Notes under the pieces: generated by a model
Seen by the model: the letters and a program-made list of their open reading frames with translations, nothing else
What the model was told of the DNA's origin: nothing
Database searches by the model: none
DNA from: Parafannyhessea umbonata
Lineage (GTDB): Bacteria; Actinomycetota; Coriobacteriia; Coriobacteriales; Atopobiaceae
Length of the DNA stretch: 64,000 nt
Direction: 5' to 3'
Assembly (NCBI RefSeq): GCF_900105025.1
Contig: NZ_LT629759.1
Coordinates: 868,001-932,000, forward strand
In this document: one piece after another, positions 2,573 through 63,956 of the stretch
Numbering within the stretch: the first letter of the stretch is position 1
How the letters are laid out: the number at the start of each line of letters is the position of its first letter
Made by a program: the position numbers and the translations under genes

Positions 2573-3660
2573 TGGCGATGTCCGACTCTGCGTCAAGCCT
2601 CGTGGACTTCGTCGCCTCCATGGGTGGCGAGAGGTCTCTTAGGGTCGAGGAGAACTACGGAGACGGATTCGTCCGTCTCCGGGTTGCCGAGGCCGAGAGG
2701 CGACAGGCAAAGCACGACATCCGCTGCATAGAGGATGTCGTGATCGAGATGCTTCGAAACTCGCGCGACGCCGGAGCAGAAAACATATTCGTGGCGACGA
2801 CGCGAGAGGGTGGGACGCGCTACCTCACCGTTCTCGATGACGGATGCGGCATTCCCCAGGAGATGCAGGACAAGATCTTCGAGGCGCGCGTTACCTCAAA
2901 GCTCGAGTCCGTACACATGGATCGGTGGGGAATCCACGGCAGGGGCATGGCACTCTACTCCGTAAGGGAGAACGCACAATCCGCTCGGGTGATGTCCTCG
3001 GCGCCGGGACTTGGCAGTGCCATCAGGATCGTTACCGACGCAGAGACCCTTGCGGAGCGCAAGGACCAGTCCACCTGGCCGACGCTCGGTACGGACGACG
3101 AGGGCAACCAGGTCGTAGCCACAGGTCCGCACAACATCGTGAGGACGTGCTGCGAGTTCGCGCTTGAGGAGCGGGGAAGATGCAACGTGTATTTCGGGTC
3201 TCCCGCCGAGATGGTGGCGACGGCCCGAAGGCGCGTCAAGCCGACGGTGGAAGGCTCTTCTCTGCTGTTCATCGACGACCTGAGCGAGCTGCCCGTGCTG
3301 GAGAGGATGCATGCCGCGGCGGATGCCTCCGAGCTCATGAGGGTCTCGGGAAGCCTTGGACTCGACATGAGCGAGAGGACCGCGCACCGCATCATAGCGG
3401 GGCAGATACACCCGCAGCGCAGCGTGTTGAAGCGACTCACGCACAAGAGCGACAAGTCGATCGAGCGAGCCGTCGACCTCATGAAGGACAGGCGGGGCCT
3501 GAAGATTTCGAAGGGTGACGCGGAGGAATTCTCTCGCGCGGTCGAGAGGGATTTTAGGATCCTTGCGGAGAAGTACTACCTAAACCTCTCGGACGAACCC
3601 CGCATTCGCGTGTCTCGCGGAAAGATTGTCGTGACGTTTGACATAGACGAATCGGATTAG
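2572..3660 (+). CDS. GHKL-type ATP-binding protein of unknown role
   Basis: The N-terminal half looks like a histidine-kinase-like (GHKL) ATPase domain: an N box with EMLRNSRDAGAENI near residue 58, a G1 box DDGCGIP near 89, and a GIHGRGMALYSV glycine-rich G2 box near 120. There is no phospho-accepting histidine box and no sensor or membrane region, so it is not a standard sensor kinase. The C-terminal 130 residues are basic and helical. It starts at a GTG overlapping the rny stop, which suggests translational coupling, and precedes spoVS. The substrate is unknown; a MutL/Hsp90-like conformational ATPase is as likely as a kinase. Confidence 0.7.
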   Translation: MAMSDSASSLVDFVASMGGERSLRVEENYGDGFVRLRVAEAERRQAKHDIRCIEDVVIEMLRNSRDAGAENIFVATTREGGTRYLTVLDDGCGIPQEMQDKIFEARVTSKLESVHMDRWGIHGRGMALYSVRENAQSARVMSSAPGLGSAIRIVTDAETLAERKDQSTWPTLGTDDEGNQVVATGPHNIVRTCCEFALEERGRCNVYFGSPAEMVATARRRVKPTVEGSSLLFIDDLSELPVLERMHAAADASELMRVSGSLGLDMSERTAHRIIAGQIHPQRSVLKRLTHKSDKSIERAVDLMKDRRGLKISKGDAEEFSRAVERDFRILAEKYYLNLSDEPRIRVSRGKIVVTFDIDESD

Positions 3661-47849: not shown

Positions 47850-49769
47850 TTACATTACCTTCTGAAACATATGGCGCACCTTGTCCAGGCGGCTGTTTGG
47901 ACGGCGGGGCTGGATGACCGGCTGACCGACAGCGGCCTGATATCCTTTCAGCTCTGTAAGGCATACGCTCCGCCCGTTGGTGTAAAAGGCCAGATCAGTA
48001 CGGTATGCCTGTATACAGCGGGCGGGAATCTCGCCAGTAAAGACAACTTCATCCTTTTTTACCTGGGCCGTTTCGATGGTGGCACAGTATTTCGGTGCAT
48101 CATGATAAGCCCTGGAAAGGTATTCCTGGGGCGCATAGAGGGTGAAGGAGAGATAAGGTTCCAGCAGCTGCGTCCCCGATTCCTTCAATGCCTGTTCCAA
48201 TACAATCGGGGCCAATGAGCGGAAGTCCGCCGGCGTGCTGACTGGACTGTAATAAAGCCCGTATTCAAAGCAAATCTTACAGTCCGTTACGTTCCAGCCG
48301 AACAAGCCCTGCTCCAGCCCGTAACGGATACCATCCCTGACAGCGTTTTGAAAACTCTGGTTCAAGTATCCCAGCGAAACCCGGCTCTCGTATTGTACGC
48401 CGGAGCCAAGCGGGAGTGGTGTAACAGACAGTCCGATAGATGCCCAAAACGGGTTGGGCGGCACCTCGATATGGATGGTGTGGCTGGCTGCTTTGAGCGG
48501 CCGCTCCATATAAATGACGGTGGGTTCCTTTACCACTGTTTCAATCTTGTATTTTTCCGACAGCAAAGCGGAAACGACCTCCAACTGCACCCGGCCCAAA
48601 TAAGAAAGAATGATCTCATGGGTGATGGAATCCACTTCGCAGCGCAAAAGCGGGTCAGTATCCGCAAGTTGCGTAAGAGCGTCCAGCAGCCGTTCTCTTT
48701 GCGCTGCCGTTTTCGGCGCAATCGTCGTCCGCAGCATGGGGAGGGGGGCCTCGCGCCACCTTTTACGAGGGAGCCGGGTTTGATCCCCTAATACATCGTT
48801 TAACCTCACGCTGTCGCTGGGAAGGATAACAATTTCGCCCGGATAAGCGGTGTCTGTCCGAACAATTTCCCCTTTGGATGGAATACGCATCTCTGTGATT
48901 TTCAGCTTTTCTCTCCCGGCCAGGGCCACCGTATCCCGCAGGCGCAGCGTTCCGCTGTATAGCCGCAGATAGACACGCCGCTGGCCGCAATCGGTGTACT
49001 CAACCTTGAAAACGCTGCCGCATAGGGTGGCGCTCCCCTGTTCCCCAATCGGTTGGAACAGTCCTGTCACCGCATCCATCAACGGTTGAATGCCAAGGCC
49101 CTTTTTGGCGCTGCCATGATAGACCGGAAACAGGGAGGCTTCTTGAACCCGCCGCTGTTCCTCCCGCGCAAGTTTTTCCTGGCTGATTGGTTCTCCTGCG
49201 ATATACTTTTCCAATAATGCATCGTTATTTTCGATGACCGCATCCCATGCTTCTATGTCGGTATTTTCCTCCAGGACTATTTCCGGGGACAGCGACACCG
49301 TCTGCTTGATGATAATATCGGCGGAGAGCTTATCCCGAACAGACTGAACCACGCTCTGCAAATCAACGCCAGCCTGGTCGATCTTGTTGATAAAGATAAC
49401 GGTGGGAATGTTCATTTTCCGCAGGGCATGGAACAGAATACGGGTCTGGGCCTGCACGCCATCTTTCGCGGAGATCACCAAGATGGCCCCATCTAAAACA
49501 GCCAAAGAGCGGTACACCTCCGCCAAAAAATCCATGTGGCCGGGCGTATCCACAATGTTAACTTTACATCTGTGCCACTGGAAGGAAGTGACTGCCGCTT
49601 GAATGGTAATCCCACGCTGCCGCTCCAAAAACAAGGTGTCCGTCCTCGTTGTCCCTTTTTCGACGCTCCCTGGTTCTGAAATGGCTCCACTGGCATATAG
49701 CAGACTCTCCGTCAAGGTCGTCTTTCCAGCGTCTACATGGGCAAGAATCCCGATATTGATAATGTTCAT
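47850..49769 (-). CDS. tet(W): Tetracycline resistance ribosomal protection protein Tet(W)
   Basis: The 639-residue protein has the elongation-factor-like GTPase domain with [20 protein letters not shown] (G1), DTPGHMDF (G3) and NKIDQAG (G4), and the C-terminal EF-G-like domains ending in [13 protein letters not shown]. Length and sequence agree with Tet(W) nearly throughout, from my knowledge of the family; a mosaic with other classes cannot be excluded without alignment. It removes tetracycline from the ribosome. Low GC compared with both sides marks recent transfer. RBS GGAGG lies before the ATG; expression is probably controlled by the attenuator upstream. Confidence 0.95.
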
Positions 49770-50344: not shown

Positions 50345-50504
50345 TCTTTGGTTCGGAATAGTGTAGTGCTGGCGGTCTATCTCTTGTTTTCGGTTGCTTG
50401 CTTCCTTACCGTACATGAGCATTCGCCCAAGGATTGTCCATTGGCTCGATGCGGGGTTCTCCCTCATGCGACGGTCGGGTCCGATTGATGCGGAAACATA
50501 TTTG
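50345..50504 (-). pseudogene. Downstream piece of the split OLD-like ATPase gene
   Basis: Starting in the target duplication, the minus strand continues the reading frame broken at 59549: ...DKYVSASIGPDRRMRENPAS, SQWTILGRMLMYGKEASNRK. The phrase GPDRRM...WTILGRML fits the region after the N-terminal Walker part of OLD-family ATPases. The rest of the protein (Walker B, Toprim nuclease) is missing: the frame runs into the inverted repeat at 50343 and stops at 50315. A second event, probably arrival of the tet(W) segment, removed it. Confidence 0.8.
50497..50504. repeat. Left target-site duplication CATATTTG of the ISL3-type transposon
   Basis: Perfect 8-bp direct repeat with 59549-59556, immediately outside the terminal inverted repeats. 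Eight bases is the duplication length of ISL3-family elements. Confidence 0.95.
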
Positions 50505-50528
50505 GGGTATGTAAAATAAGTGGTTGGA
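50505..50528 (+). repeat. Left terminal inverted repeat of the transposon
   Basis: GGGTATGTAAAATAAGTGGT followed by TGGA. Pairs with 59525-59548, differing only at positions 14 and 16. Confidence 0.93.
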
Positions 50529-50617
50529 AATTGGTAAATCTCTGGTTGGCCGCGTTCGAGTCATAGCTAAGGCATCCAACCATCTTTTTAACAATCTGGA
50601 ATACTAGAGTCCAACCA
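50521..50617. repeat. Left subterminal motif array (four TGGTTGG sites)
   Basis: TGGTTGG at 50521-50527 and 50543-50549 on the plus strand, and its complement CCAACCA at 50576-50582 and 50611-50617, each beside an AT-rich TTTTTAACAA- or TAAAT-like block. They match the motif in the right end and probably bind the transposase. Confidence 0.8.
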
Positions 50618-50618
50618 C

Positions 50619-51254
50619 TTATCTACCGTCTTTACGCATTGAATCGAAGTCGATCAGCTCTAGTTGCTCTACGAACTTCTCGAGATATGAGGCGACTTCC
50701 TCGTCGTTCACGAAGAGCGGCCTATCCTGTGTGAGCCTTCCTGAACTGTCTTGCGGATAGCGAAGGCTGATGCCGTTGTCGTCGATGCCGGCTACGGCCC
50801 CTACGAATGCGCCCATGTTTTTGATGGCCCTGTTGTCCTCACGGCACCTCTGCCCTGGGAACCTCGAGAGCAGGGAGCTCCACAGCTTCGTGAGGCTGTG
50901 CTCTCTCTTGGGCTCGACTCCGCACTTCCTAATCGCCCGCTTGATAGCGAGCTCCATGCAGTGTCTCGTGAGGAACAGGACCGGGATCGCATAGGAATGC
51001 TTCAGCATCACGTACATCCCCGGCCTGTCGATGGCCCTTCTTCCGGCGGCCGCCAGTTCCTTCGCGGCGTTGAGGAACGAGCGGATGAACTCCTCCTCGA
51101 ACAGCTCGCCCTTGAGCTCTTCATTCATCAGGACGGACGAGTCCAGCAGGGAGAAATCCCTCAGGGTGGGGTCGTTAAAGCCGTTCATCTGCGGCTTCAT
51201 CACTTGACGGCGCACGTATCGTGGAAATACATGCTCGGTGAATAGACTTCCCAT
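50619..51254 (-). CDS. HEPN-like hypothetical protein, transposon cargo
   Basis: A 211-residue protein. MLKHSYAIPVLFLTRHCMELAIKRAIRKCGVEPKREHSLTKLWSSL has the look of a HEPN domain: hydrophobic helices with a central ELAIKRAI and a following EHSLTKLW. HEPN proteins are often RNases or their binding partners in defence modules; the usual Rx4-6H catalytic motif is not clear. The ATG overlaps the transposase stop (TAATG). It is the last gene of the transposon and ends among the left subterminal repeats. Confidence 0.55.
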   Translation of the reverse strand: MGSLFTEHVFPRYVRRQVMKPQMNGFNDPTLRDFSLLDSSVLMNEELKGELFEEEFIRSFLNAAKELAAAGRRAIDRPGMYVMLKHSYAIPVLFLTRHCMELAIKRAIRKCGVEPKREHSLTKLWSSLLSRFPGQRCREDNRAIKNMGAFVGAVAGIDDNGISLRYPQDSSGRLTQDRPLFVNDEEVASYLEKFVEQLELIDFDSMRKDGR

Positions 51255-52633
51255 TAAAGAACCTCCCCAGTCGTTGCGTCGACCCTCACTCCCGACCTCG
51301 GGTCTATGAACTCGTCCACGGCCTCGTCCTCGCGGTCGGGCTCGGTCACGAAGAGCGGGCCGGGTGCATCGATGCGAGGGCCAATCGTGAGCCCGTTGCT
51401 CGCGATGATGCGGTCGAGGTTCTGCCTTCGGTAGAGGGTCCTGGCCCGAAGCGTCTCGAACGAGTAGCCGCGCCCCCTCATGTCCGTCTCGTTGATGAGC
51501 CGGTTCGCGCACTCGGTGTAGCCGTTCGAGATGCGGCTGGGGCAGTCCCAGTAGTTGAAGATGAACTCGCGGTGGTTCTGGACGGTCCGGGCAAGGGCTC
51601 TGAACGGATTGAGGTCCCTGCCTTCGGGAATCTCCCGAACCCAGGCGTCGAACGCCGCCTCAGCCTCCTCGCGCGAGGACGGATGGTCGTCGTAGATGCC
51701 GAAGAAGTCCTCCTTGAGGTCGTACGCGGCCATCAGCGTCGAGTAGGAGGGGTCCTCCCGCAGCGCCCTGAGGGCCGATGCCTCGTAGGGGCTGAGGTCG
51801 CTCGTCCGCTTCCTGAGGGCGTAGGCGAGGCCCTTCTTCAGCTCAAGGCGGCCCTTCCTGTCGAGGGTCCCCTGGAGGCCCTTGCGGATCGTGTCCAGGG
51901 CCTCGTTGGCCCCCTTCACGACATGGAAGTGGTCGATGACCCATGTCGCGTTCGGGGTGTACTTGGCTATGCTCTTCCAGAAAGGCCGGTACATGTCGCT
52001 CGAGACCCACCGCACGCGCTCAAGGCCCTCCAACGAGGAGAAGTAGGCGTCGAGGTCTGACTGCGTCCTGCCGGGCACCATGTCGAATACCGTCCTGTGC
52101 TCGAGGTCGGTGATCACGGTCACCATGCCGACCCTCTTGAGGTTCTTCTCGTCTATGCCCAGGAACGCCGGCACCTTGAAGCGAAGCCTCGAGGCGTTCT
52201 CGCGGACGTAGTCCTCGAAGACGTTCTTCACGGTGACGTGCGAGAGCGGGTACTCCTCGGCGACCTCGCGGAAGGTGAGCCTGAGCGAGCGCTGGGCGAT
52301 GTCGGCGTATGCCGCCTCCGTCATCCGGTGGCCCTCGTCGACCCCGCCTATCTCCGGGCGCCACACGTAGCCGCACTCCGGGCACCGCATCCGCGGGAAC
52401 CCTATCTCGAGCCTCGTCGGGATGCCCAGGTGGGGCGTAGACGCCACGCCGACGGTCCTCGCGCCGTGGCTGTGCAGCGTCCCCCCGCACTCGGGGCACG
52501 TTGCGGGGACGGGGCCACGGTATCTCAGGTCGAACTGCTGGAGCCTCCTGCCGCAATCGACCTTGGTCGAGCTGCCGATGAGCTCGCAGTCCCGGACGCC
52601 GAGCAGCTCCTCGACGTATCCTGCCGCGCCCAT
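51254..52633 (-). CDS. ISL3-family transposase
   Basis: The 459-residue protein begins with a zinc-finger-like N terminus (CPECGGTLHSHGARTVGV and MRCPECGYVWRP), a helix-turn-helix (FREVAEEYPLSHVTVKNVFEDYV), and the DDE_Tnp_ISL3 core: PAFLGIDEKNLKR with the first Asp, VSSDMYRPFWKSIAKYTPNA with the second, and SNGYTECANRLINETDMRGRGYSFE with the Glu. All three look present. The ATG directly follows the hsdR stop (TAGATG), and GGGGGAAG inside hsdR is the RBS, so it is expressed with the RM operon rather than from its own promoter. Confidence 0.93.
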   Translation of the reverse strand: MGAAGYVEELLGVRDCELIGSSTKVDCGRRLQQFDLRYRGPVPATCPECGGTLHSHGARTVGVASTPHLGIPTRLEIGFPRMRCPECGYVWRPEIGGVDEGHRMTEAAYADIAQRSLRLTFREVAEEYPLSHVTVKNVFEDYVRENASRLRFKVPAFLGIDEKNLKRVGMVTVITDLEHRTVFDMVPGRTQSDLDAYFSSLEGLERVRWVSSDMYRPFWKSIAKYTPNATWVIDHFHVVKGANEALDTIRKGLQGTLDRKGRLELKKGLAYALRKRTSDLSPYEASALRALREDPSYSTLMAAYDLKEDFFGIYDDHPSSREEAEAAFDAWVREIPEGRDLNPFRALARTVQNHREFIFNYWDCPSRISNGYTECANRLINETDMRGRGYSFETLRARTLYRRQNLDRIIASNGLTIGPRIDAPGPLFVTEPDREDEAVDEFIDPRSGVRVDATTGEVL

Positions 52634-55600
52634 CTACTTCCCCCTAGAGAGGTAGGAGGCGAGCTCGGCGATGTCGTAGCGCTTCCCCTGCGAGATGAGG
52701 TCGTACACCTGGTCGGCAAGGGGCTCGATCGCCTGCGGGTCGTCGAGCGCCTGCTCGGCGAGGTCGCCCAGCTCGTTGCTCATCATCGACATGAGGGCCC
52801 TGATGACGATGTTGCGAAGGCGCCCGTCCGCGAGGACGGCCTCCTTCGTGTTGCTCGTGTTCGTGATCTGGGTGTTGGTCACGGGGTCTGCCGCCACGGC
52901 GTCGGAGACCGCGTTGACGGCGCGTGCCTTCACGAGGGGGTCGCCCTCGTCGCCCCACGTACGGTTCAGCCGTTCCACGATTCTTGCCATGGTGTCTCGC
53001 TTGGGGGCTGATCCGGAACCTCCGGCACCCACCGGCATGAGCTCGCCGCCCTCGACCCCCTCGGGGACCTTCTGGGCCGATATGCGGAAGTCCCGGAGCA
53101 CGAGGCCACGCACGTCGACGTCGTCGAGCGAGGTGCCCGCGATCCTGTGGCCGAGCAGCTTTGCGAAGCCGTAGAACACCTCGAGGTCGGGATCGCCGTA
53201 GTCGAGCGCCTGGGACAGGAACGTGTAGGCGGAGCAGTACTTGGAGAGCTTCTTCCTGAAGGTCATCAGCTCGGCGACCCGCCCCGCCGCCTCGTCCGCG
53301 CTCCTCTTGGCCCTCTCCGCCTCCTCGGCCTCGCCGGCCGCCTCCGCCCGGTTGGCGCACTCCAGCCAGGTCTCATACGAGTCCTTGGCCGAGGCGAACC
53401 TCTCCCGAAAGATCTCCGCGGGGCGCGACACGGCGGAGTAGAGCGCCGCCCTGTAGGCATCGCTCTCACCGCCCGCGGCAAGGCCCTTTGACCTATAGAG
53501 GGCCTCCTTGAACTCCTCGACGTCGCGCGTCGCATACACGTCGGCGGCGTCGAGTGCCTCCTTCAGCTCGTAGACCACGTCGGGGTCCTGAGCCATGTTC
53601 ATGCTTGCGCCCTTGTCGTAGGTCTTGAAGGCCGCGAGCACCGTCTCGGGATCGTTCACGAAGTCGACCACGAAGACCTTGTCCTTGCCAGAGCACGTCC
53701 TGTTGACGCGCGAGTAGGTCTGGACGATCTCGATTGCGTTGCCGAGGGGCTTGTCAACGTAGAGGGCCACGAGCTTCTTCTGGTCGAAGCCGGTCTGGAA
53801 CTTGTTCGCGACGATGAGGAGCCTGCGCTCCGGTCGGTCGAACGCCCTCTCGACCGCGCCCTCGCCGGCAGGGTTCATGTTGGCCTCGGTGTACTCGTAG
53901 TCGCGCTCAATGAGGGCGAACGGGTTGTCCTTGAGGTACTCGTCCTCGGGCAGGACGCACTTGTCACCCAGCACCTTCTGGGAGAAGGCGACGAGAGGTT
54001 CGCCGGGCACCTTGAAGCGCAGCTTCGGCTCGACCTTCGCCGGATCGAGGTCGGGCCGCGACTTCAGGTATGCCTCGATCGCATACTTGTAGCGCACCAC
54101 CTCGGGACGGCCGGAGGTGACGATCATGGCCTTGGCCTCGCCGTTCAGGAGCGGCGCCACGTTGTCGACGAAGTGGTCGATGATCCACTTGGCCTTCTCC
54201 ATTACGTTGGTCGGGTGGAGCGAGCGCCATTTAGCGATCTTCCTTTTTGCCCTGCGTTCGTCGACGAGCCTGTCATCGGCATCCTCGGACTCGTCCTCGA
54301 TCCTCGATAGCGTCCTCAAAGGCACGTAACCCGTAAGCGGGTCGATGATGTAGCCCTCCTCGATCGCCTGCCGCATCGGGTAGAGGTGGAAGCTGCCCAT
54401 GACCGGGTTGCCATCCTCGTCCATCTCGCCGGTCGGGGTCCCGAAGAGGGTCTTGGTCTCGGCCTTGGGGGTCGCGGTGAACGCCAGGAAGGAGACGTTC
54501 GGCGGCATGAGGTTGCTCGCCTGCATCTGGGCGAAGTAGGCGTCCATGACGGTCTCATCGTCCGACTCGTCGTCGAAGTCGAGCATCCTCTCGAACTTCA
54601 GCTTGTCAGCCGCGGCGTTGAAGGCGGTCTTTAGGGACGCGGCGGAGCTTCCTTCCTGGGAGCTGTGGGCCTCGTCGACGATGACCGCGAAGCCGGCGCC
54701 GTCGAGCTCCGGCAGCGACGCGATGTCCGGCCAGGCGTAGAGGAACGTCTGGATAGTGACGACGACGATCTCCCTCTTCTGCCGAAGGGCCTCGACGAGC
54801 TGCGAGCTCTTGGAGCCGTCGGCGACGGCGTTGCCCCGCTCGTCGCGACCGACCATGACGACCTGTCCCGTCACCTTGGAGAGCTGGGAGATGGTCTTCT
54901 TTATGTTCTGGTCGAGCGACAGCCTGTCGGTGACCACCACGACGCTCGAGAACATCTTCTCGCCGTCCGCGCGGCGGAGCCTCGCGAGGTCGTGCGCGGC
55001 CCAGGAGATGGTCTCAGTCTTGCCGGAGCCGGCCGAGTGCTCGATGAGGTAGCGGCGACCCGGCCCGTGCTCCCGTGCATCGGCCAAGACCTTTCTCTCG
55101 GCGTCGAACTGGTGGTAGCGGGGGAATATCTGCGTCGCCTGCCTGCGCCACCGACCGCTCGCGTCCTGCCTGTCCTCGACCTCCTCGAATACGAACCTGT
55201 CGAAGATGGACAGCCAGTTGTCGCGCTGTAGAATGGTGTCCCAGAGGTAGTGGGTCCTGTACTCGCCCTCCGGCGCGTCCGGATTGCCCGCGCCGCCGTC
55301 ACGTCCCAGGTTGAACGGGAGGAATCGGGGCCTCGCCGACTTGCTCGGGAAGGGGCCAAGGTTCGTGCACATCCAGACCTCGTCCTCGGAGACGGCGAAG
55401 TGGACGACCGCCCCGCGCTTGTACATGAGCAGCGGGTTCTTCCTGCCGCCGTCGGGCTCCACCGCCTTTCGCTCCTCGGCGTACTCGTCGATCGCGTCCC
55501 GGACCGTCTGCGTGAGCTCGGTCTTGACCTCGCCCGTGGCGACGGGGATGCCGTTGACGAAGAGCGCGAAGTCGAGCGACTTGCTCCCGGCGGTCTGGTA

Positions 55601-56059
55601 GTGGACCTGGTGCATGAAGCGCAGGATGTTCGCGTCGTAACGCTCCCTCGCGCCGGGGACGCGCTCGTCGTCGGGGTAGCCCGCCATGCACTCGATGGTC
55701 TGGTACCCCGCCATCTGGAAGCCCTTGCGCAGAGTGAGGACAGTGCCGTTCCTCTCGAGGCTCTTCACCAGGGCGCGTCTCAGCTGGTCGGCCCAGCGGG
55801 CGCCCTTCTCGCGGCGCATTTTGTCGAGTTTCTCGGGTGCGGTAGCCTCGAGCCAGGCCACGAAGTCGTCAAAGACCAGCGCATTGTCTGCGTCGAAGCC
55901 CGTGTCGTCGGGCGAGAGTTCCCAGCCCGAGTTGCCGAGCCCCGCGACCTTGCGCGAGATGTAGCGCTCGAAGGCGTCCTCCTGGTGAATCTTGCGTAAG
56001 CCGTTGTAATCGACGGTAATCTGGCCTTTGCTCGCGCGATGCATGTCGGACAGCGCCAT
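52634..56059 (-). CDS. hsdR: Type I restriction endonuclease subunit R
   Basis: The 1141-residue motor and nuclease subunit. The N-terminal nuclease domain has the PD-(D/E)xK motif in SLDFALFVNGIPVATGEVKT (Asp..Glu-Val-Lys). The helicase domains show Walker A EHSAGSGKTETISW near residue 346, DEAH in AVIVDEAHSSQEGS, TATPKAETK (motif III) and NKFQTGFDQKKLVALYV, ending in a helical C-terminal domain that binds the methylase. It starts 2 bases after hsdS. It cuts unmethylated DNA after translocation. Confidence 0.95.
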   Translation of the reverse strand: MALSDMHRASKGQITVDYNGLRKIHQEDAFERYISRKVAGLGNSGWELSPDDTGFDADNALVFDDFVAWLEATAPEKLDKMRREKGARWADQLRRALVKSLERNGTVLTLRKGFQMAGYQTIECMAGYPDDERVPGARERYDANILRFMHQVHYQTAGSKSLDFALFVNGIPVATGEVKTELTQTVRDAIDEYAEERKAVEPDGGRKNPLLMYKRGAVVHFAVSEDEVWMCTNLGPFPSKSARPRFLPFNLGRDGGAGNPDAPEGEYRTHYLWDTILQRDNWLSIFDRFVFEEVEDRQDASGRWRRQATQIFPRYHQFDAERKVLADAREHGPGRRYLIEHSAGSGKTETISWAAHDLARLRRADGEKMFSSVVVVTDRLSLDQNIKKTISQLSKVTGQVVMVGRDERGNAVADGSKSSQLVEALRQKREIVVVTIQTFLYAWPDIASLPELDGAGFAVIVDEAHSSQEGSSAASLKTAFNAAADKLKFERMLDFDDESDDETVMDAYFAQMQASNLMPPNVSFLAFTATPKAETKTLFGTPTGEMDEDGNPVMGSFHLYPMRQAIEEGYIIDPLTGYVPLRTLSRIEDESEDADDRLVDERRAKRKIAKWRSLHPTNVMEKAKWIIDHFVDNVAPLLNGEAKAMIVTSGRPEVVRYKYAIEAYLKSRPDLDPAKVEPKLRFKVPGEPLVAFSQKVLGDKCVLPEDEYLKDNPFALIERDYEYTEANMNPAGEGAVERAFDRPERRLLIVANKFQTGFDQKKLVALYVDKPLGNAIEIVQTYSRVNRTCSGKDKVFVVDFVNDPETVLAAFKTYDKGASMNMAQDPDVVYELKEALDAADVYATRDVEEFKEALYRSKGLAAGGESDAYRAALYSAVSRPAEIFRERFASAKDSYETWLECANRAEAAGEAEEAERAKRSADEAAGRVAELMTFRKKLSKYCSAYTFLSQALDYGDPDLEVFYGFAKLLGHRIAGTSLDDVDVRGLVLRDFRISAQKVPEGVEGGELMPVGAGGSGSAPKRDTMARIVERLNRTWGDEGDPLVKARAVNAVSDAVAADPVTNTQITNTSNTKEAVLADGRLRNIVIRALMSMMSNELGDLAEQALDDPQAIEPLADQVYDLISQGKRYDIAELASYLSRGK

Positions 56060-56061
56060 GG

Positions 56062-57321
56062 CTAAGCCTCCGTGCAGTCGATCTTGCCGGTGACGGCGTG
56101 GTGGATGATGGATTTGCGGTACTCTCCGAGCTTCTCGATGAGCTGTTCCTGTCGGGAGATCGCCTCGTCGATGGCGGCACAGCGTTCATCGAGGAACGCA
56201 ACAATTGATTCCCTATCAGCTATTGGCGGCACTATAGCTGAGAGTTTCAGGAAAACCTCTGGATATAGTCGAAGCCTGGAATCCATAATCCCAGTCGAAA
56301 ACGATTTGAAATAAGTACAGTAAAGGTTCGTTCTAAACAGATAATGAAAATAGCGGGGACAAATGGAGCCCTTGGGGCTAAAGACGCCATAAGAGGGGCT
56401 AATTACGCCATCGTGTTCCGAAACGGCCTGTGCGCCTTTCCAGGCAAGCATAATATTCATTATCAGGTCGCCGCACTTGCATTGCTGATATCCACGCAGC
56501 GATTCTGCTCGCACCAGCGTATCGCTTTCCTTGATACGTTTCTTTCGATAGTCAACGCCGTAGTATTCGGAGACAGAAAGAAGTTCATCTTCTGTCGCGT
56601 CGTCAATCAGAACCCTCCTTTGTTGAAATAGAGAGCCGATACGTAAAATTTCCCAGGTAGTCGGCACCTTGCCGAGCCACTCGACCCCGCTGTCCTTCAT
56701 TTCAGTATTCGGGTCGAGGCCCTTCGTCACAGCACGCGCGATGAGGGACTTCTTGTACTCTTTGAGCTTCTCGATGACCTCACGGCGCTTGTCGATGTCT
56801 GCATCGATGGCGGCGCAACGCTCGTCGAGGTAGGAGACGATACGGCGTTGCTCAGAAAGAGGTGGCACGGGAAACACGGTGTTTTCTACGCCTTCTTTTG
56901 TCACATGGACCATCGTTGAGCCATGGCTCTGCATTCGCTGCCATTCAGCGTTGGCGCCGAGCGCATAAAAGGCATACCGCTGGAGATAATCTCTAAACTG
57001 ATCGACCTTCCAGATGTGGTAGTGATATATAACCTTTTCTTCATTCCAAAATACGGGCCCAAAGGTTGTCGCCCACAGATAGAGGAGATCTCCCTTTTTG
57101 CAGTACTGCTTTTCCGGGAGCTCCAAATCGCTGTAATACCACTTGTCGTTGGTGTTGAAATTGCCCACTCTCAAAACCCGATAAGTTCCTTTGGCAAGAA
57201 GCTCCTGTTGCTTATAGGCACGACCGTTTGTGAGCGACATGAGATACTTAACCTTGCTTTGTTTCCAATTCTGGGGCACCTCGCCAATCCACTCAACCCC
57301 GCTGTCCTTCATCTCCCTCAT
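56062..57321 (-). CDS. hsdS: Type I restriction specificity subunit S
   Basis: The 419-residue protein has two target-recognition domains, each starting with a repeated MKDSGVEWIGEVP/MKDSGVEWLGKVP unit (residues 4-16 and 208-220) and ending in a conserved helix: PPLSEQRRIVSYLDERCAAIDADI and PPIADRESIVAFLDERCAAID. The two domains read different half-sites; their low GC relative to hsdM and hsdR suggests exchange. ATGA overlap with hsdM. The recognition sequence cannot be read from the protein. Confidence 0.95.
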   Translation of the reverse strand: MREMKDSGVEWIGEVPQNWKQSKVKYLMSLTNGRAYKQQELLAKGTYRVLRVGNFNTNDKWYYSDLELPEKQYCKKGDLLYLWATTFGPVFWNEEKVIYHYHIWKVDQFRDYLQRYAFYALGANAEWQRMQSHGSTMVHVTKEGVENTVFPVPPLSEQRRIVSYLDERCAAIDADIDKRREVIEKLKEYKKSLIARAVTKGLDPNTEMKDSGVEWLGKVPTTWEILRIGSLFQQRRVLIDDATEDELLSVSEYYGVDYRKKRIKESDTLVRAESLRGYQQCKCGDLIMNIMLAWKGAQAVSEHDGVISPSYGVFSPKGSICPRYFHYLFRTNLYCTYFKSFSTGIMDSRLRLYPEVFLKLSAIVPPIADRESIVAFLDERCAAIDEAISRQEQLIEKLGEYRKSIIHHAVTGKIDCTEA

Positions 57322-59393
57322 GCCAGGAACCCCCTCATGAGCTCGCCGAGGCCGTCCTCGAGCGCGAGGATCTCCTTCGCGATGACCTCGGGGTCGCGGG
57401 GCTTCTCATACTTGTAGAAGTACCTGTTGAACGAGATTGACGTGCCGACCACGCCCACCCCACCGTCGCCGAGCGGGTTGGAGGTGAGACCGGTCTTCTT
57501 GTCGAACCTCGGCTCGTCGATCACGGACGCGTCCACGACGGCGTCGGGTGCGTAGGGCAGCACCTCGCTCGCCATGTAGTCGTCGATGTCCATGCCGAGC
57601 GGCACGTTCTCGGAGTCCCTCAGCTCGGGGTCGAACACGGGGTTGCCCTTCGCGTCGACCGCCGGCTCCGCGGAGGGGTCTTGCCGACCGAACACCTTGA
57701 CGAGCGCCTCGACGAGCTTCGTCTTCTGCGGCTTAGGGTTCTCGAGCCTCTTGAAGAGCCCATCGACGTCCTTGAGGAGCTGAGCATAGGTGAGCGCGTC
57801 GCCCTCGTTCGCCGCCGCCCACAACCGGATGGTCGCCCGGTTTTCCCCAGTCATCTTCTCCATGGGTTTGCTGAACGAGAAGAGCTCGTCGAGCTTCTCG
57901 GGCGTAGGCTCGACGAACACGCGCAGCGGGCGCTGGGTCGTTACCTTGCGGTACATGAAGTCCTCGACGGGAACGATGACCGACTTGCCGTGGTCGTGGC
58001 CGTCGACGTAAGTGCGGACGATCCACGCTGCCTGCTCCTCGCCGATTTCGTATCGCTTGTTGCCCTGGCTCTTGCGCAGCGCCGTCCTCTCCTCGGAGGC
58101 GTCGATGAGCTGGACGTAGCCCTTACGGTTCTCGGGCTTATGGTTGTTGAGCACCCAGACATAGGTGGCGATGCCCGTGCGGAAGAAGATCTCGGTTGGG
58201 AGCTTAACGATGCAGTCGACCAGGTCCTCATGGAAGAGCCAGCGGCGGATGTTCGAGGGCCCGCTTCCCGCGTCCCCGTTGAACAGAGGAGAGCCGGAGA
58301 GCACGATGGCCGCCTTGCCGCCGCCCTCCTCGACAGGCGCCATCTTCGCGGCGACGTTCTGAAGGAACAGCATACTCCCGTCGTCGATGCTGGGAAGGCC
58401 CGCGCCGAACTTGCCGCCGAAGCCCCTCTGCGCCTCCTCGACCACGCCGTCCTGTTCCTTCCTCCACTCCTTCCCGTAAGGTGGGTTGGTGAGCTGGTAG
58501 TTGAAGGTGCGCCCATCGAACCTGTCGTCGTCGAGGGTGTCGCCGAGCATGATGCCCGCCGAGAGGTCGCTCATCTGGTCGAGCACGTCACCGGAGCCAC
58601 CGGCGATGTTGCGCAGCATAAGGGCCGCCTTGCCCATGGCCCACGTCGCGTCTTCGAGCTCCTGGCCGTAGGGGACGATCTTGGTGGGGCTGCTGAAGTG
58701 TCCCTTGTCGTGCCATTCGTCGAGCTGGTCGAGCGCGTCGCAGATGAAGCCACAGGTCCCGCAGCTGCCGTCGTAGAGCGTGCGGATGTCGCCGTTGTCG
58801 GCGTTGAGCAGCGTGTCCTCGTTTGCGAAGAGCAGCGCGGTGGCGAGGCGAGCGACGTCCTTGGGCGTCATGAAGTCCTCGGCGTCCTGCGAGATCTCCT
58901 CGCCGTAGCGCTGGATGAGGTGCTCGTAGATGTCGGTCATCATGCGGTCCGAGACCGACTCAGGTCCAAGGTCGAAGCTCGCGAAGCGCGTGCAGACCTC
59001 GTAGAGCATGCCCTTCTCGTCCAGCTTCTCGCAGGTCTGGCGCATCTCGAAGCGCTGCAAGACCTCGCGGGCGTTCGCGGAGAAGCCGTTGATGTAGGCC
59101 ATGAGGGCGTCACAGGTCTTAGTGGCACCGAGGTTGGAGAGCGTGAAGCTCGTCACGTTGTAGAAGCAGTGGCCCGAGATGGCGCAGTACTTCGGGTCGT
59201 CGTCGTCCCAAACTCCCTTGGCGGCTTGCCTGCTGACCGCACCTCTCGTCGCATCGAGCGCGCACTCGAAGCGCCTCAGCACCGCAAAGGGCAGAATGAG
59301 CTTGTTGTAGTCGGCGGGGCGGATCACGTCGCGCACGTAGTTTGCGATGCCCCATATCTCGTTCACGTAGTCGAACGCGGACTTCACGGCCAT
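57318..59393 (-). CDS. hsdM: Type I restriction-modification methyltransferase subunit M
   Basis: The 691-residue N6-adenine methylase has the N-terminal HsdM bundle (IWGIANYVRDVIRPADYNKL), an SAM-binding motif region (LYDGSCGTCGFICDALDQLD) and the catalytic NPPYGKEW. It is longer than the EcoKI type (about 530) but fits the larger HsdM class. The ATG at 59393 with GAGAGGA upstream is the start. It is the first gene of the cargo operon; a candidate promoter (TTGTAA, 17 bases, CTATTT) lies among the right subterminal repeats, so transposase and methylase control may share sites. Confidence 0.95.
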   Translation of the reverse strand: MAVKSAFDYVNEIWGIANYVRDVIRPADYNKLILPFAVLRRFECALDATRGAVSRQAAKGVWDDDDPKYCAISGHCFYNVTSFTLSNLGATKTCDALMAYINGFSANAREVLQRFEMRQTCEKLDEKGMLYEVCTRFASFDLGPESVSDRMMTDIYEHLIQRYGEEISQDAEDFMTPKDVARLATALLFANEDTLLNADNGDIRTLYDGSCGTCGFICDALDQLDEWHDKGHFSSPTKIVPYGQELEDATWAMGKAALMLRNIAGGSGDVLDQMSDLSAGIMLGDTLDDDRFDGRTFNYQLTNPPYGKEWRKEQDGVVEEAQRGFGGKFGAGLPSIDDGSMLFLQNVAAKMAPVEEGGGKAAIVLSGSPLFNGDAGSGPSNIRRWLFHEDLVDCIVKLPTEIFFRTGIATYVWVLNNHKPENRKGYVQLIDASEERTALRKSQGNKRYEIGEEQAAWIVRTYVDGHDHGKSVIVPVEDFMYRKVTTQRPLRVFVEPTPEKLDELFSFSKPMEKMTGENRATIRLWAAANEGDALTYAQLLKDVDGLFKRLENPKPQKTKLVEALVKVFGRQDPSAEPAVDAKGNPVFDPELRDSENVPLGMDIDDYMASEVLPYAPDAVVDASVIDEPRFDKKTGLTSNPLGDGGVGVVGTSISFNRYFYKYEKPRDPEVIAKEILALEDGLGELMRGFLA

Positions 59394-59422
59394 GGTCGGT
59401 CCTCTCTGAGAGAAATAGAATT

Positions 59423-59532
59423 CCAACCATGTATTTTACAACCGAAAGCCATGATTTGAGCTGTTAGCCAACCAATAGTTTAACAACTCTGGCGAACGGT
59501 TTCGCCAACCACTGACTTAACGAATCCAACCA
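59423..59532. repeat. Right subterminal motif array (four CCAACCA sites)
   Basis: CCAACCA starts at 59423, 59468, 59505 and 59526, each followed by an AT block such as ATAGTTTAACAAC. Spacings are 45, 37 and 21 bases. All four have the same direction, the last one being part of the terminal repeat. They also surround the probable hsdM promoter. Confidence 0.85.
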
Positions 59533-59548
59533 GTAATTTTACATACCC
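59525..59548 (-). repeat. Right terminal inverted repeat of the transposon
   Basis: On the minus strand reads GGGTATGTAAAATTACTGGT then TGGA, matching 22 of 24 bases of the left end. Confidence 0.93.
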
Positions 59549-59556
59549 CATATTTG
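59549..59556. repeat. Right target-site duplication CATATTTG
   Basis: Perfect match to 50497-50504, directly outside the right terminal repeat. Confidence 0.95.
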
Positions 59557-59894
59557 TCGCGAGCATCGCCGTTGGCGTAGCTGCCATTCAGATTCAGGCC
59601 ATGTCTCTCTTTACCTCGGTAGTCAACCCAGGTGGAGTCAAATGAGAGGATGTTTCTATCATCGAACCGCATCGCAATCTTCAAAGGCTGGTCATCTTTG
59701 CCGTTGTAAAAATCTGACTTATCCAGTCGGTTCGGTACAGGATATGTGGGTCCGAGCAGGTACTCCATGGCTGCCATGATGTTGCTCTTCCCAACGTTGT
59801 TGGCACCGATGAATACGTTGATGCGAGGGTTAAGATCAACGTGAAGTTCTTTGATGCTCTTGTAGTTGATGATGTCGAGATGCTCGATCTTCAT
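59549..59894 (-). pseudogene. N-terminal part of an OLD-like ATPase gene, split by the transposon
   Basis: The ATG at 59894 overlaps the DUF4391 stop. The frame reads MKIEHLDIINYKSIKELHVD, then FIGANNVGKSNIMAAMEYLL with a Walker A loop, typical of OLD-family overcoming-lysogenization-defect ATPases. At codon 116 it runs into the transposon end and stops at 59517 after nine foreign codons. The continuation is found at 50345-50504. The eight bases 59549-59556 are the right target duplication. As it stands only about a quarter or less of the gene is present, so the product is non-functional. Confidence 0.9.
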
Positions 59895-60517
59895 TTGGCA
59901 CCGCCTTCCATAAGACGTCGTATCTCTTCGCGCAACTTGTTTTCCTCGTCGAAGAGCCGGTTCCTGCGCGCGAACTGCTTCTCTTTCCTGTGCCTTGCCT
60001 CTACCTTGGCAAGCCGCTCCTTGAGACGCTCGATCTTCTCGTCCGTGGCATGGCGTTCCTCCACGGTCTCGCCTGCACGTCCCTCATCGCCGTAGGCCAC
60101 CTGCGATGCCATGAGGTCCCAGGTCTGGTCCATGCCGGTGGGGTCGAGCCTGAGCGCGAGCTCGCCGGCGTCCTGCCACTGTCCCACGACGAGGCTCCCG
60201 AGCAGCACCGCAAGGCACGCCCTTCCGTCCCGGGTGCATGCGAACAGCAGCCTGTGCGGGTTCGAGCGGGCGATTGCCGCTAGCGCGGCCTTCGGCACCG
60301 TTGCTCCCTTGAGCGCCACCTCGAGGACGAGCACCTCCTGGACGACATCCCCCGCGGGGATGCCGGTCGTCGAGGGCTTAATCGAGTTCCTCAGGGTGAT
60401 GGACTCGATGTCGTCCACGAACGATCGCCTGGTCGCGGGGTCGAGCTGAAGGTGCTCGTAGAACGCCCTCTTCGGCAGGACCCTGTCGACCTCCGTCGTG
60501 CTCGGCAGTCCTAGCAT
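59891..60517 (-). CDS. DUF4391 domain protein
   Basis: The 208-residue protein fits DUF4391: MLGLPSTTEVDRVLPKRAFYEHL at the start, VLVLEVALKGATVPKAALAAIARSNPHRLLF, and a charged C-terminal coiled coil (EKIERLKERLAKVEARHRKE). DUF4391 genes often stand next to SNF2-type helicases and methyltransferases in defence loci; their function is not known. The ATG at 60517 overlaps the helicase stop (ATGCTAG), and its own stop overlaps the OLD-like start, so the operon is tightly coupled. Confidence 0.75.
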   Translation of the reverse strand: MLGLPSTTEVDRVLPKRAFYEHLQLDPATRRSFVDDIESITLRNSIKPSTTGIPAGDVVQEVLVLEVALKGATVPKAALAAIARSNPHRLLFACTRDGRACLAVLLGSLVVGQWQDAGELALRLDPTGMDQTWDLMASQVAYGDEGRAGETVEERHATDEKIERLKERLAKVEARHRKEKQFARRNRLFDEENKLREEIRRLMEGGAK

Positions 60518-63500
60518 CTGGGCCTCACCACCAGGAAGCACACGAGCTCGAAGTCGTCGAGGCCCGCCACGTCGTTCTCCAGGAAGCCGGTCGTGCCGCC
60601 GCCGAAGAAGCTGTCCACGTCCGACTCCTCCTTGGCGCCCATGATGGAGCTCACGGCGGCATTGAGGAGTCCCATTGCCCAGCGCATGTCGCGGCCGTTC
60701 TTGGTCTCTCTGTTGAGGGGCTTGTAGAGCCGCGGGTCCGGTTCGCCTCTCCCCTTGCAGAGTAGCCTCATCTCGTCGAGGACTGCCTTGGGCTCCAGGT
60801 GTGAGTGGACCACCTCCCCGTCCGAGGCGACCTGTACCACATAGAAGGGGTGGATGCGGTTCCTGCCGTCGGGGTTCATCGCCTCGTTCACGTTGCGAAG
60901 GACGAAGACGATGCCGGGCGTGTCGCCCTCGCAGACCGCCTCGATCCCGGAGGGGAGCCGGTCTATCTCGGGGTTTTCCTTGTAGTAGGCAAGCAGGTCC
61001 ATGCGGAACTCGTTGAGCCCCAGGTCCGTGATCGAGACCCCGCCGGAGACGTCCTCGAGGTCGACGACCTCGTGGCGCATCTGCTCTAGCTGCTGCCTGC
61101 GGTACTCGAGGTCGCCCCTCTCGCCCGGGTTCACGTAGTCGTCGTCCCCCGTTGACGCGAGCACGGTCGCCCTCATCCGCGCCTCGACCCGCTCCTTAAG
61201 GTTGATGTACTCGTCCAGCTCGACGTTGGGCCAGTAGTTGACGAGTTGGATGCAGGCATTCCTGGAGCCGATGCGGTCGATCCGCCCGAAGCGCTGCACG
61301 ATGCGCACGGGGTTCCAGTGGATGTCGTAGTTCACGAGGTAGTCGCAGTCCTGCAGGTTCTGGCCCTCGGAGATGCAGTCCGTGGCTATGAGGACGTCTA
61401 TGTCGTGGCCCTCGAGCGCAGGCGAGAGCACGGCGCGCTCCTTGGAGGCGGGGCTGAAGCACTCGAGCACCTCGGCCATCCTCGCGGGGATGCCGGGGCA
61501 GTTGGTCATACAGCCCTTACCCGTGACGACGGCGGTATTCAGGCCGAGCTCATTCTTCGCGAACTCGGAGACGTGCTCGTAGAGGTAGCGCGCCGTGTCG
61601 GAGAACGCGGTGAAGACGAGCACGTTCCTGTTGCCGGGGTTTATGGGGTGCTCGGCCTTCTCTCGGATGTCCTCGCAGAGCCGCAGGAGCTTCGCGTCGT
61701 GGGCGGGGTCGATGTCATCGATCATGGAGAGCAGCAGGCGCACCGTGTCCGCGTCGCGCGCTACCTCCCCCTCCCAGCTCATCCAGTCCATGTCCTCGAG
61801 AAGGATCCCTGTGCCGCCACCGGCCTCCACCGCCTCCGCGTCGTCGGGGTCGAGGTCGAGGTCGATAGTAGCTCCGGCGTCCGAGACCGAGGCGTTCCCC
61901 TCTCTGTGCTGCTTGTAGTGCTCGATGGTCTGAAGCGTCTGCTCCATGTAGGAGAGCACGCGCTCGAGCGTGAGCCGAAAGGAGCTCACGGAGCTCTCGA
62001 GCCGCTTGAGGAGGTTCGTCGTCATGAGGCGCCTGATGCCCGCCTCGCGACCGGCGGCGGAGAGGTTGCCGCTCTCGGGGTCCTCGTACTTCCCCACCTT
62101 GCTCGGCTGCAGGAAGGCGCTTGGCATGTAGACCGAGAGCGTGAGGGAGTCCAGCTCCGCGTAGATCTCGCGGTAGTTGATGGCGCCAGGCAGCGTCGAG
62201 AGGCTGGGGTCGCGCGAGATGGGCGGGAGGCGCCTCGGGAACGGCCCGAGCGCCGCCGTGTCGTAGTACTGCTGTATGTGCCGCCTGCTGCGTGCGATCG
62301 TAACCTGGTCCAGCACCTCGAAGAAGTCGAAGTCGAGCATGTCCTGGAGCCTGGCGGTGGTCCTCTGGCCGACGGGCAGCTTGGACCACGCGGTGTAGGC
62401 GCCCTGCGCGTTCCTGAAGACCGTCTCCACGTCGCACGAGAGCCCGAGGCGTGCCGACCACGCCTCCGGGTCTCCCTGGTAGGCGAGCGCGAGCTGGTTC
62501 CTGAGGTCGCGGAAGCGGTTGTTGACCGGGGTGGCGGAGAGCATGAGCACCTTGGTCCTCACGCCCTGCTTGATGACCTTCTCCATAAGGGTCTGGTATC
62601 GGTTGAGCCTGTCGTTGGTGGCCGAGTCGCCGCCGTTCCTGAAGTTGTGGCTCTCGTCTATCACGACGAGGTCGTAGTTGCCCCAGTTGACGCGGGAGAG
62701 GTCGACCCCCATGGTCTCGGACATCCCGCGCTCGCGCGAGAGGTCCGTGTGGTAGAGCACGTCGTAGCGGAGCCTGTCCGAGGCGATGGGGTTGTTCACG
62801 ACGTTGCGGTTGTATGTTGTCCAGTTGTCCCGGAGCTTCTTGGGGCACAGGACGAGCACGTTCCTGTTGCGGGACTCGTAGTACTTTATGACCGCGAGCG
62901 CCGTGAACGTCTTGCCCAGGCCGACGGAGTCCGCGAGGATGCAGCCGTCGAAGGTCTCGAGCTTGTTGATGATCGCGATGGCGGCATCCCTCTGGAAGTC
63001 GTACAGCTTGCCCCAAATGGCGCTCTCGCGGAAGCCGGTGCCCTCCTTGGGGAGCACGTCCTCGGACACGTCGTCGAGGAACTCGCTGAAGATGCGGTAG
63101 AGGGCCATGTAGTAGACGAGTTCGGGAGGGTTCTCCTTGTACATGGCCGTGATGGAGTCGACCACCGCGTCCGTCACGTCGTCGAGCCGGCCGGAGTCCC
63201 AGGCCTCGTCGAAGATGTCGAGGAGGGCCCTCGACGTGGACGCGTCCGGCCGCATGACAAGCGCCTGCCTGCCCGAGGAGTTGTCCACGCCCAGCTCCGC
63301 CGTGGTCAGCCCGGCGAACGGCGTGTAGGCGGCGGTCCCCTCCGGGCCGTCCACCACGAGGAAGGTGTTGTCCATCCCGTTGTCCACGCCGAAGGAGCGG
63401 AACTTGGCCTTCCGGCGGATCCAGCGGGCGCACTCGGAGGCGACCGACTTCTGCGTCAGCTCGTTGCGGAGGCGAATCTCCAGCTGGGTCCCGCAGAGCC

Positions 63501-63750
63501 CCTTCTCCCGGGCGAGCCGGGGGATGTAGAACTCCCGCTCCTGCTTGGGGGGCCGGCTCCTGGTGAACGCCTGCGACGTGAAGATGAAGCGGAACTCGTC
63601 GAGGCCGTCGAGCTGCTCCTTGAGCTCCTGGTAGGCGTACATCGAGAAGACCTCGGCCGCGACCGACACGCGGTCGCCGGACCTGATGGTCGAGACCAGG
63701 TCGTCCTTCACGATGTTCGCCTTGTTGTCGAAGAAGGGGGGATGCGTCAT
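60511..63750 (-). CDS. SNF2-like helicase with N-terminal PLD-like domain
   Basis: The 1079-residue protein begins with about 220 residues resembling a phospholipase D-like nuclease fold (DLVSTIRSGDRVSVAAEVFS, LDEFRFIFTSQAF), then superfamily 2 motifs: I in CILADSVGLGKTFTALAV, II in LVVIDESHNFRN, III in LMLSATPVNNR, and the C-terminal V/VI in IATDCISEGQNLQDCDY and QRFGRIDRIGS. An acidic insert lies near residue 640. Such PLD-helicase proteins occur in phage-defence operons. The start at 63750 has GGAGGGAAG and overlaps the RHH gene (ATGA). Confidence 0.88.
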   Translation of the reverse strand: MTHPPFFDNKANIVKDDLVSTIRSGDRVSVAAEVFSMYAYQELKEQLDGLDEFRFIFTSQAFTRSRPPKQEREFYIPRLAREKGLCGTQLEIRLRNELTQKSVASECARWIRRKAKFRSFGVDNGMDNTFLVVDGPEGTAAYTPFAGLTTAELGVDNSSGRQALVMRPDASTSRALLDIFDEAWDSGRLDDVTDAVVDSITAMYKENPPELVYYMALYRIFSEFLDDVSEDVLPKEGTGFRESAIWGKLYDFQRDAAIAIINKLETFDGCILADSVGLGKTFTALAVIKYYESRNRNVLVLCPKKLRDNWTTYNRNVVNNPIASDRLRYDVLYHTDLSRERGMSETMGVDLSRVNWGNYDLVVIDESHNFRNGGDSATNDRLNRYQTLMEKVIKQGVRTKVLMLSATPVNNRFRDLRNQLALAYQGDPEAWSARLGLSCDVETVFRNAQGAYTAWSKLPVGQRTTARLQDMLDFDFFEVLDQVTIARSRRHIQQYYDTAALGPFPRRLPPISRDPSLSTLPGAINYREIYAELDSLTLSVYMPSAFLQPSKVGKYEDPESGNLSAAGREAGIRRLMTTNLLKRLESSVSSFRLTLERVLSYMEQTLQTIEHYKQHREGNASVSDAGATIDLDLDPDDAEAVEAGGGTGILLEDMDWMSWEGEVARDADTVRLLLSMIDDIDPAHDAKLLRLCEDIREKAEHPINPGNRNVLVFTAFSDTARYLYEHVSEFAKNELGLNTAVVTGKGCMTNCPGIPARMAEVLECFSPASKERAVLSPALEGHDIDVLIATDCISEGQNLQDCDYLVNYDIHWNPVRIVQRFGRIDRIGSRNACIQLVNYWPNVELDEYINLKERVEARMRATVLASTGDDDYVNPGERGDLEYRRQQLEQMRHEVVDLEDVSGGVSITDLGLNEFRMDLLAYYKENPEIDRLPSGIEAVCEGDTPGIVFVLRNVNEAMNPDGRNRIHPFYVVQVASDGEVVHSHLEPKAVLDEMRLLCKGRGEPDPRLYKPLNRETKNGRDMRWAMGLLNAAVSSIMGAKEESDVDSFFGGGTTGFLENDVAGLDDFELVCFLVVRPRC

Positions 63751-63956
63751 TCTTTGCTTCCCTCCGAGAGCCTCTCTATGAGGCATACCTTCACGTACGT
63801 TGTCAGGCTCATGCCCTTCAGCTCCGCCGCTTCCTTCGCCGCGTCGCGCAGGTTCCGCGGGATTCGCATAGTGACCGGGACGTTCTCCGAACCCACGAGG
63901 AACGCCTGAATCTCGGTGGGGGTGGCGCCGGAGTCGACGAGCTCTGAGTACTTCAT
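63747..63956 (-). CDS. Ribbon-helix-helix type small DNA-binding protein
   Basis: A 69-residue protein: MKYSELVDSGATPTEIQAFL then VPVTMRIPRNLRDAAKEAAE and LKGMSLTTYVKVCLIERLSE. The VTMRIPRNLRDAAKEAA strand-helix followed by a second helix is the RHH fold seen in Arc-like repressors and antitoxins. The ATG at 63956 is preferred as the fold begins soon after; an in-frame start at 63989 exists. As first gene of the helicase operon it is probably its autoregulator. No cognate toxin of the usual kind follows. Confidence 0.75.
   Translation of the reverse strand: MKYSELVDSGATPTEIQAFLVGSENVPVTMRIPRNLRDAAKEAAELKGMSLTTYVKVCLIERLSEGSKE

Follow-up and report, generated by a model that had tools for sequence, protein, structure and literature searches.

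Organization of the element

The window, i.e. the whole 64,000-nucleotide stretch of DNA analysed here, contains a complete ISL3-family transposon with subterminal arrays of short sites at both ends, as proposed in a preliminary description of this DNA, and with a five-gene operon between them (Table 1). The tips of the element read GGGTATGT, the 33-nt inverted repeat includes the outermost units of both ends, and the target duplication CATATTTG is perfect on both sides. When the flanks are rejoined minus one copy of the duplication, the frame of an AAA_15-type ATPase reads through (175 aa, with the junction near residue 112), indicating that the ATPase gene was interrupted by the element. Both the G-rich tips of the terminal repeats and the 8-bp duplication are those of the ISL3 family, for which duplications of this length are the rule. 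The DR column of PMC6305408 lists 8-bp duplications for ISL3 elements. The element is situated within a defence-like cluster (window 59517-63786) comprising an SNF2 helicase (PADLOC C3a139), a DUF4391 protein and the interrupted AAA_15/OLD-like ATPase, and is adjoined by a Tet(M)/Tet(W)-type ribosomal protection gene (window 47850-49769).

The five genes, hsdM-hsdS-hsdR-transposase-HEPN, form one operon on the minus strand, in which neighbouring genes overlap by 4 nt or sit 0-2 nt apart and the transposase takes fourth place, behind the three restriction genes. The frames of hsdM, hsdS and hsdR (691, 419 and 1141 aa) are intact and have the expected domains, and the element is thus predicted to carry a complete type I restriction-modification (RM) gene set. 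The hsdM-hsdS-hsdR-tnp order within one operon is also that of the ISKpn25/ISSm4-like RM elements. In a profile search, PF01610, PF13542 and PF14690 all scored above their cut-offs in the transposase, which accordingly combines an ISL3 DDE domain with a zinc ribbon and a helix-turn-helix (HTH). The only region upstream of the operon inside the element is occupied by the right array.

Table 1. Coordinates of the transposon, its terminal units and its genes in the window
Feature	Position	Strand	Basis	Remarks
Complete ISL3-family transposon	50505..59548	.	inverted terminal repeats, tips, flanking 8-bp duplication	9,044 bp
Target duplication CATATTTG, left copy	50497..50504	+	tip/flank comparison	8 bp
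Target duplication CATATTTG, right copy	59549..59556	+	tip/flank comparison	8 bp
Left unit 1 (terminal repeat)	50505..50528	+	matrix scan	offset 0
Left unit 2	50527..50550	+	matrix scan	offset 22
Left unit 3	50575..50598	-	matrix scan	offset 70; inverted
Left unit 4	50610..50633	-	matrix scan	offset 105; inverted; AT half overlaps 3' end of HEPN gene
Right unit 1 (terminal repeat)	59525..59548	-	matrix scan	offset 0
Right unit 2	59504..59527	-	matrix scan	offset 21
Right unit 3	59467..59490	-	matrix scan	offset 58
Right unit 4	59422..59445	-	matrix scan	offset 103; contains TAAAAT; box begins 36 bp before hsdM ATG
hsdM, type I methylase	57318..59393	-	open frame; N6_Mtase + HsdM_N; PADLOC MTase_I	691 aa; first in operon
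hsdS, specificity subunit	56062..57321	-	Methylase_S; PADLOC	419 aa
hsdR, restriction subunit	52634..56059	-	HSDR_N, SWI2_SNF2; PADLOC	1141 aa
ISL3 transposase	51254..52633	-	DDE_Tnp_ISL3 2e-53, HTH_Tnp_ISL3, Zn_ribbon_ISL3; NF033550 above cut-off	459 aa
HEPN-domain protein	50619..51257	-	PF05168 2.8e-5, just above cut-off	212 aa; last gene

Eight two-part units at the element ends

The preliminary description had drawn attention to eight TGGTTGG sites, four per end, with AT-rich partners, two direct and two inverted on the left and four in one direction on the right, and all of this is borne out. The sites lie at 50521+, 50543+, 50576-, 50611-, 59423-, 59468-, 59505- and 59526-, and a ninth nearby copy (50179+) falls outside the element. 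TGGTTGG is the inner half, or box, of a two-part 24-bp unit, about TTGTWAAAnnnnTGGTTGG, which doubles as the terminal repeat and has an AT-rich half of about TTGTWAAA. Counted from the tip, the offsets are 0/22/70/105 on the left (++--) and 0/21/58/103 on the right (----). A 24-bp matrix derived from the eight units gives each of them a score of at least 27.8, compared with 14.0 for the next best site in the window, the eight being also its training set.

The heptamer occurs 15 times in the window versus 5.2 expected (s.d. 2.4), a count reached in 0 of 100 shuffles. Across the whole genome (2,353,093 bases) the 215 copies, or about one per 11 kb, compare with 187 in a backwards-read control, and TGGTTGG by itself is unremarkable at this scale. 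The element ends, by contrast, hold eight copies in about 250 bp (two regions, each spanning some 130 bp), and the uniform genome-wide density that had been named as an argument against the arrays is not what is found. Moreover, all five matches to the stricter pattern TWAAANNNNTGGTTGG in the 2.35-Mb genome lie within the two ends of the element, with none in the reversed control. Chance or a genome-wide motif can thus be rejected on the basis of the shuffles, the genome counts and the confinement of TWAAANNNNTGGTTGG.

Conservation of the arrays within the order

Conservation of motif number and spacing among relatives, suggested earlier as a check, is observed in genomes of the same order, where the offsets recur. 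Transposases 94-96% identical to that of the window are present in two of the 394 other genomes of the order and the tip pattern in 11 of 392, whereas no relative was found among the viral contigs searched, and in a phylum sample of 396 genomes G000 and G260 are the only ones with relatives. At least part of the right array is present in seven genomes, the window's included, which is a small set of related elements. The right offsets 0/21/58/103 are kept in the window, G260, G019, G152 and G181, with G149 having the same offsets save for a 1-bp gap and G156 having the inner three right units, at the same spacings, at a contig edge. The left array (0/22/70/105-106, with the last two units inverted) is found in the window, G260 and G149; in G152 the second left unit is under the matrix threshold, and in G181 the first. 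Column conservation in the right inner units is 0.89 for the box and 0.84 for the AT half versus 0.60 for the spacers (1 of 101 circular shifts as good), and in the left inner units 0.85 and 0.76 versus 0.36 (0 of 97). When 6-mers were counted end by end, significance was reached by the two ends of the window element and the left end of G260, and not by the other elements.

Perfect 8-bp duplications flank the elements of the window, G260, G152 and G149 (in G149 across two contigs), and that of G181 has decayed. The G260 copy, of 10.3 kb, has hsdR, tnp and HEPN 94-96% identical to those of the window and an hsdS of just 40% identity. We note that in G260 the right array and hsdM are split by the insertion of a Mutator-type transposase gene (L014:17313-18431), which would separate the operon from its array.

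In G152 (L040:8828-10116) and G181 (L043, about 1895-3250) the element is reduced to derivatives of ~1.3 kb. An in-frame fusion joins residues 1-28 of hsdM to residues 363-459 of the transposase, and behind it lies HEPN in G152 and a different, 232-aa gene in G181. These derivatives, which have no working transposase or RM system, retain both arrays and the operon start and are inserted at different sites. The shared hsdM-tnp junction suggests that one deletion event gave rise to both, and the differing surroundings and the perfect duplication in G152 suggest that they were later moved by a transposase from elsewhere. The alternative last gene, of 232-234 aa, replaces the HEPN gene behind tnp in G149 (L015:2271-2975) as well as in G181 (L043:2431-3129); the two are 69% identical to each other and matched no Pfam or PADLOC family. 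In addition, two-tip pieces of 94, 94 and 113 bp are found in G051, G303 and G304 (L037:9404-9497, L044:8786-8879 and L046:10159-10271), with no matching target duplication in their flanks; both 94-bp pieces have the exact left-array geometry 0/22/70 (inverted).

Related RM-carrying elements in Pseudomonadota

The element type is already known from ISKpn25, an ISL3 element (ISfinder) of Klebsiella plasmids, with 8,154 bp and four reading frames including restriction genes (PMC8796155), for which hsdM has been described as a passenger gene (PMC5142620). Identical 8,154-bp copies are reported on pKpQIL plasmids and in mgrB (PMC8796155, PMC5142620), indicating that the whole unit moves. In L058, ISKpn25 starts with the methylase frame and ends with that of the transposase; a table footnote in PMC8796155 seems to swap these function labels. 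As in the window element, the ISL3 transposase of ISKpn25 comes last in hsdM-hsdS-hsdR-tnp and the duplication is 8 bp, in this case GAAATTAG. ISKpn25 differs in its transposase (42% identical), tip (GGCTATTTGC), AT half (TTGTGCAAA) and lack of a HEPN gene, as well as in having three positions per end in a single direction, rather than four units. Its boxes lie at 56 and 102 at the hsdM end, where the tip box differs by one base, and at 0/56/101 at the tnp end.

The best plasmid transposase matches are 41-44% identical to that of the window, and six of the seven elements fetched (Serratia ISSm4, Azospira, Paracoccus, Enterobacter, Burkholderia and Klebsiella ISKpn25) have hsdM first and hsdR directly before the transposase; in the Acinetobacter record the transposase is preceded by hsdM, hsdS and an Abi gene, with no annotated hsdR. 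The ISSm4-like elements (on Serratia, Azospira, Paracoccus and Burkholderia plasmids) share hsdM first and hsdR adjoining tnp with the window element and have boxes at 0/55-57/100-103 at each end, but differ in their extra operon genes, the lack of a HEPN gene and the position of the tnp-end inner boxes inside tnp. The Azospira and Paracoccus copies have perfect 8-bp duplications, as in the window, whereas the ISSm4 and Burkholderia copies have no matching duplication.

Boxes are found at 0/55-57/101-103 at the hsdM end of five Pseudomonadota elements (the Acinetobacter tip could not be placed at this end) and at 0/55-56/100-101 at the transposase end of five (ISSm4, Azospira, Paracoccus, Burkholderia and ISKpn25; no tip was found at this end of the Enterobacter record). 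The AT half reads about TTGTGCAAA in these elements. The right end of the window element fits this one-directional layout (0/~56/~102) with one extra unit, whereas the left end, 0/22/70/105 with two inverted units, departs from it. A single-end tip-similarity test gave no significant result at several of the relatives' ends, among them the 3' end of G260, both ends of ISKpn25 and the Enterobacter end. Boxes 2 and 3 of the transposase end lie within or beside tnp and have no AT half. In L050, L055, L056, L057 and L058 two boxes fall within or next to the final 100 bp of tnp, with offsets matching those of the other end, and the same stretch may thus encode protein and serve as a binding site.

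With the hsdM ATG as reference point, five of the six elements scored have boxes at about -117, -61 and -15, and the Acinetobacter element has them at -64 and -15. In scoring without shuffle control, the best or tied-best promoter match begins in box 2 in five of the six, and the second best does so in ISSm4; the hexamers in the clearest three are TTGAAA or TTGACA and TATGCT or TATTCT, again without shuffle control. Box 3, GGTTGGAG in most of these elements, covers the ribosome-site region. The hsdM promoter region is thus likely to be threaded through the boxes, with the -35 hexamer in box 2.

ISPst2 and ISPpu12 share the tip form ending in TGGTTGAT, with one inner copy per end at an offset of 47 to 56, but carry permease/regulator or metal cargo and have two units per end; transposases of ISPpu12-type matches are 32-34% identical. 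None of the three transposase-only ISL3 elements with placed ends (ISKox3, IS1251 and a multi-copy element of the window's genome) has a box array, and the ends of a fourth, ISEfa11, were not found. Although the sample is small, this agrees with the earlier remark that such arrays are atypical of simple ISL3 elements; the tie to Tn7-like transposons implied in the same remark is not supported, given the ISL3 transposase, the 8-bp duplication and the occurrence of such arrays in cargo-carrying ISL3 elements. These are very probably transposase-binding arrays, typical of cargo-carrying ISL3 elements of the ISPst2/ISPpu12/ISSm4/ISKpn25 kind, rather than a Tn7 trait.

Proposed role of the arrays

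From the observed units, their geometry and conservation, the transposase family, the target duplication and the gene order, we infer that the eight units are, with good probability, recognised by the ISL3 transposase that the element itself encodes, that the inner units help to pair the ends and that binding at the right array also limits the operon. The zinc ribbon and HTH of the transposase could read the two halves of the unit, i.e. the AT-rich half and the TGGTTGG box. Cutting would happen at the outermost unit of each end, and the inner units would dock more transposase and give the two ends distinct geometries, thereby enabling left and right ends to pair correctly before cutting and subsequent insertion with an 8-bp target duplication. 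Where the units lie, how they are conserved and what the derivatives keep all argue for transposase binding at every unit and for inner units that distinguish and pair the ends.

The right array occupies the sole upstream stretch that the operon has within the element, so that transposase bound at these sites should limit transcription of hsdM-S-R-tnp-HEPN, its own gene included. This agrees with the preliminary description, which had placed the right array over the hsdM promoter region and raised regulation of the methylase by the transposase. Such regulation is plausible from the layout, with the best evidence coming from the Pseudomonadota relatives. No sigma-70-like promoter passed a scan of this region in the window, where the AT half of right unit 4 contains a TAAAAT as a possible -10 candidate.

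In favour of arrays read by the transposase we count the confinement of TWAAANNNNTGGTTGG, the kept offsets, the unit conservation, the duplications, the derivatives with arrays, the boxes in Pseudomonadota elements with 42-44% identical transposases and the promoter overlap there. Against it we count the absence of a window promoter in the scan, the non-significant single-end tests, the small number of related elements and the tnp-end boxes 2 and 3 of the Pseudomonadota elements, whose position inside tnp without an AT half may be explained by protein coding.

Alternatively, the inner units could be mainly operators, through which the transposase or another protein controls the restriction operon, with only the outermost unit serving transposition. 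The right array is well placed for this upstream of hsdM, as are the likely -35 hexamer within box 2 and, in most elements, box 3 over the ribosome-site region in Pseudomonadota; however, the left array, behind the last gene, is equally conserved with no promoter to control, and the derivatives keep both arrays with no working RM system, and we consider this explanation improbable. That offsets have been held to about 1 bp while the spacer sequence diverged, and are similar in another phylum, makes it very improbable that the arrays are functionless debris of repeated nested insertion or terminal-repeat duplication, to which the 94-113-bp two-tip pieces in G051, G303 and G304, with no target duplications, might otherwise point. 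Tn7 has several sites at each end, differently arranged, and Tn7-like transposons resemble the window element at most in this function of several transposase sites per end with left unlike right, yet Tn7 has unrelated transposition genes, a 5-bp duplication and targeted insertion, and membership can be rejected with near certainty for an element whose sole transposase is of the ISL3 family, whose five genes have no detected domain that would mark a TnsA, TnsB or TnsC and whose duplication is 8 bp long.

Returning to arrays bound by the transposase, we tentatively suggest, as a speculation for which the odds are somewhat unfavourable, that throughout the ISKpn25/ISSm4-like class the transposase would act as the control protein of the restriction system, with the end sites as hsdM operators over the -35 and ribosome-site region. 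One concentration-dependent switch would then set end pairing, transposition and restriction, being open when the element enters a new cell and closing as transposase builds up, and the Coriobacteriia branch would have added a fourth site and the inverted left array. This branch, on sequence comparison, differs from ISKpn25 in its four units per end, inverted left array, other AT half and added last gene.

The element and its relatives bear on two open questions, namely how a cell can acquire type I restriction genes and survive, and by what means a large ISL3 element distinguishes its two ends; they offer a concrete layout, amenable to testing, in which a single protein could handle both tasks. 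In our literature search, with subscription journals mostly outside its coverage, we recognised no description of subterminal arrays, their asymmetry, promoter overlap or transposase control of hsdM in ISL3 elements. Control of such elements matters clinically, since ISKpn25, which has the same organisation, is reported to disrupt mgrB in colistin-resistant Klebsiella (PMC8796155).

Ancestry of the RM genes and transposase

The hsdM, hsdR and tnp of the window are all about 41-44% identical to those of ISKpn25/ISSm4. We do not claim one ancient unit from this co-divergence, since the window's hsdM and hsdR are more similar to those of a free-standing type I system in G231 (hsdM 51-52%, hsdR 48-54%). 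No ISSm4-type transposase or array was found at the G231 system, and either independent capture of the RM genes or transposase loss in G231 may account for this. The hsdS region of this system contains a simple ISL3 element. In a tree of 16 transposases, the deep forks allow no firm placement, and the transposases nearest by path to that of the window are RM-linked.
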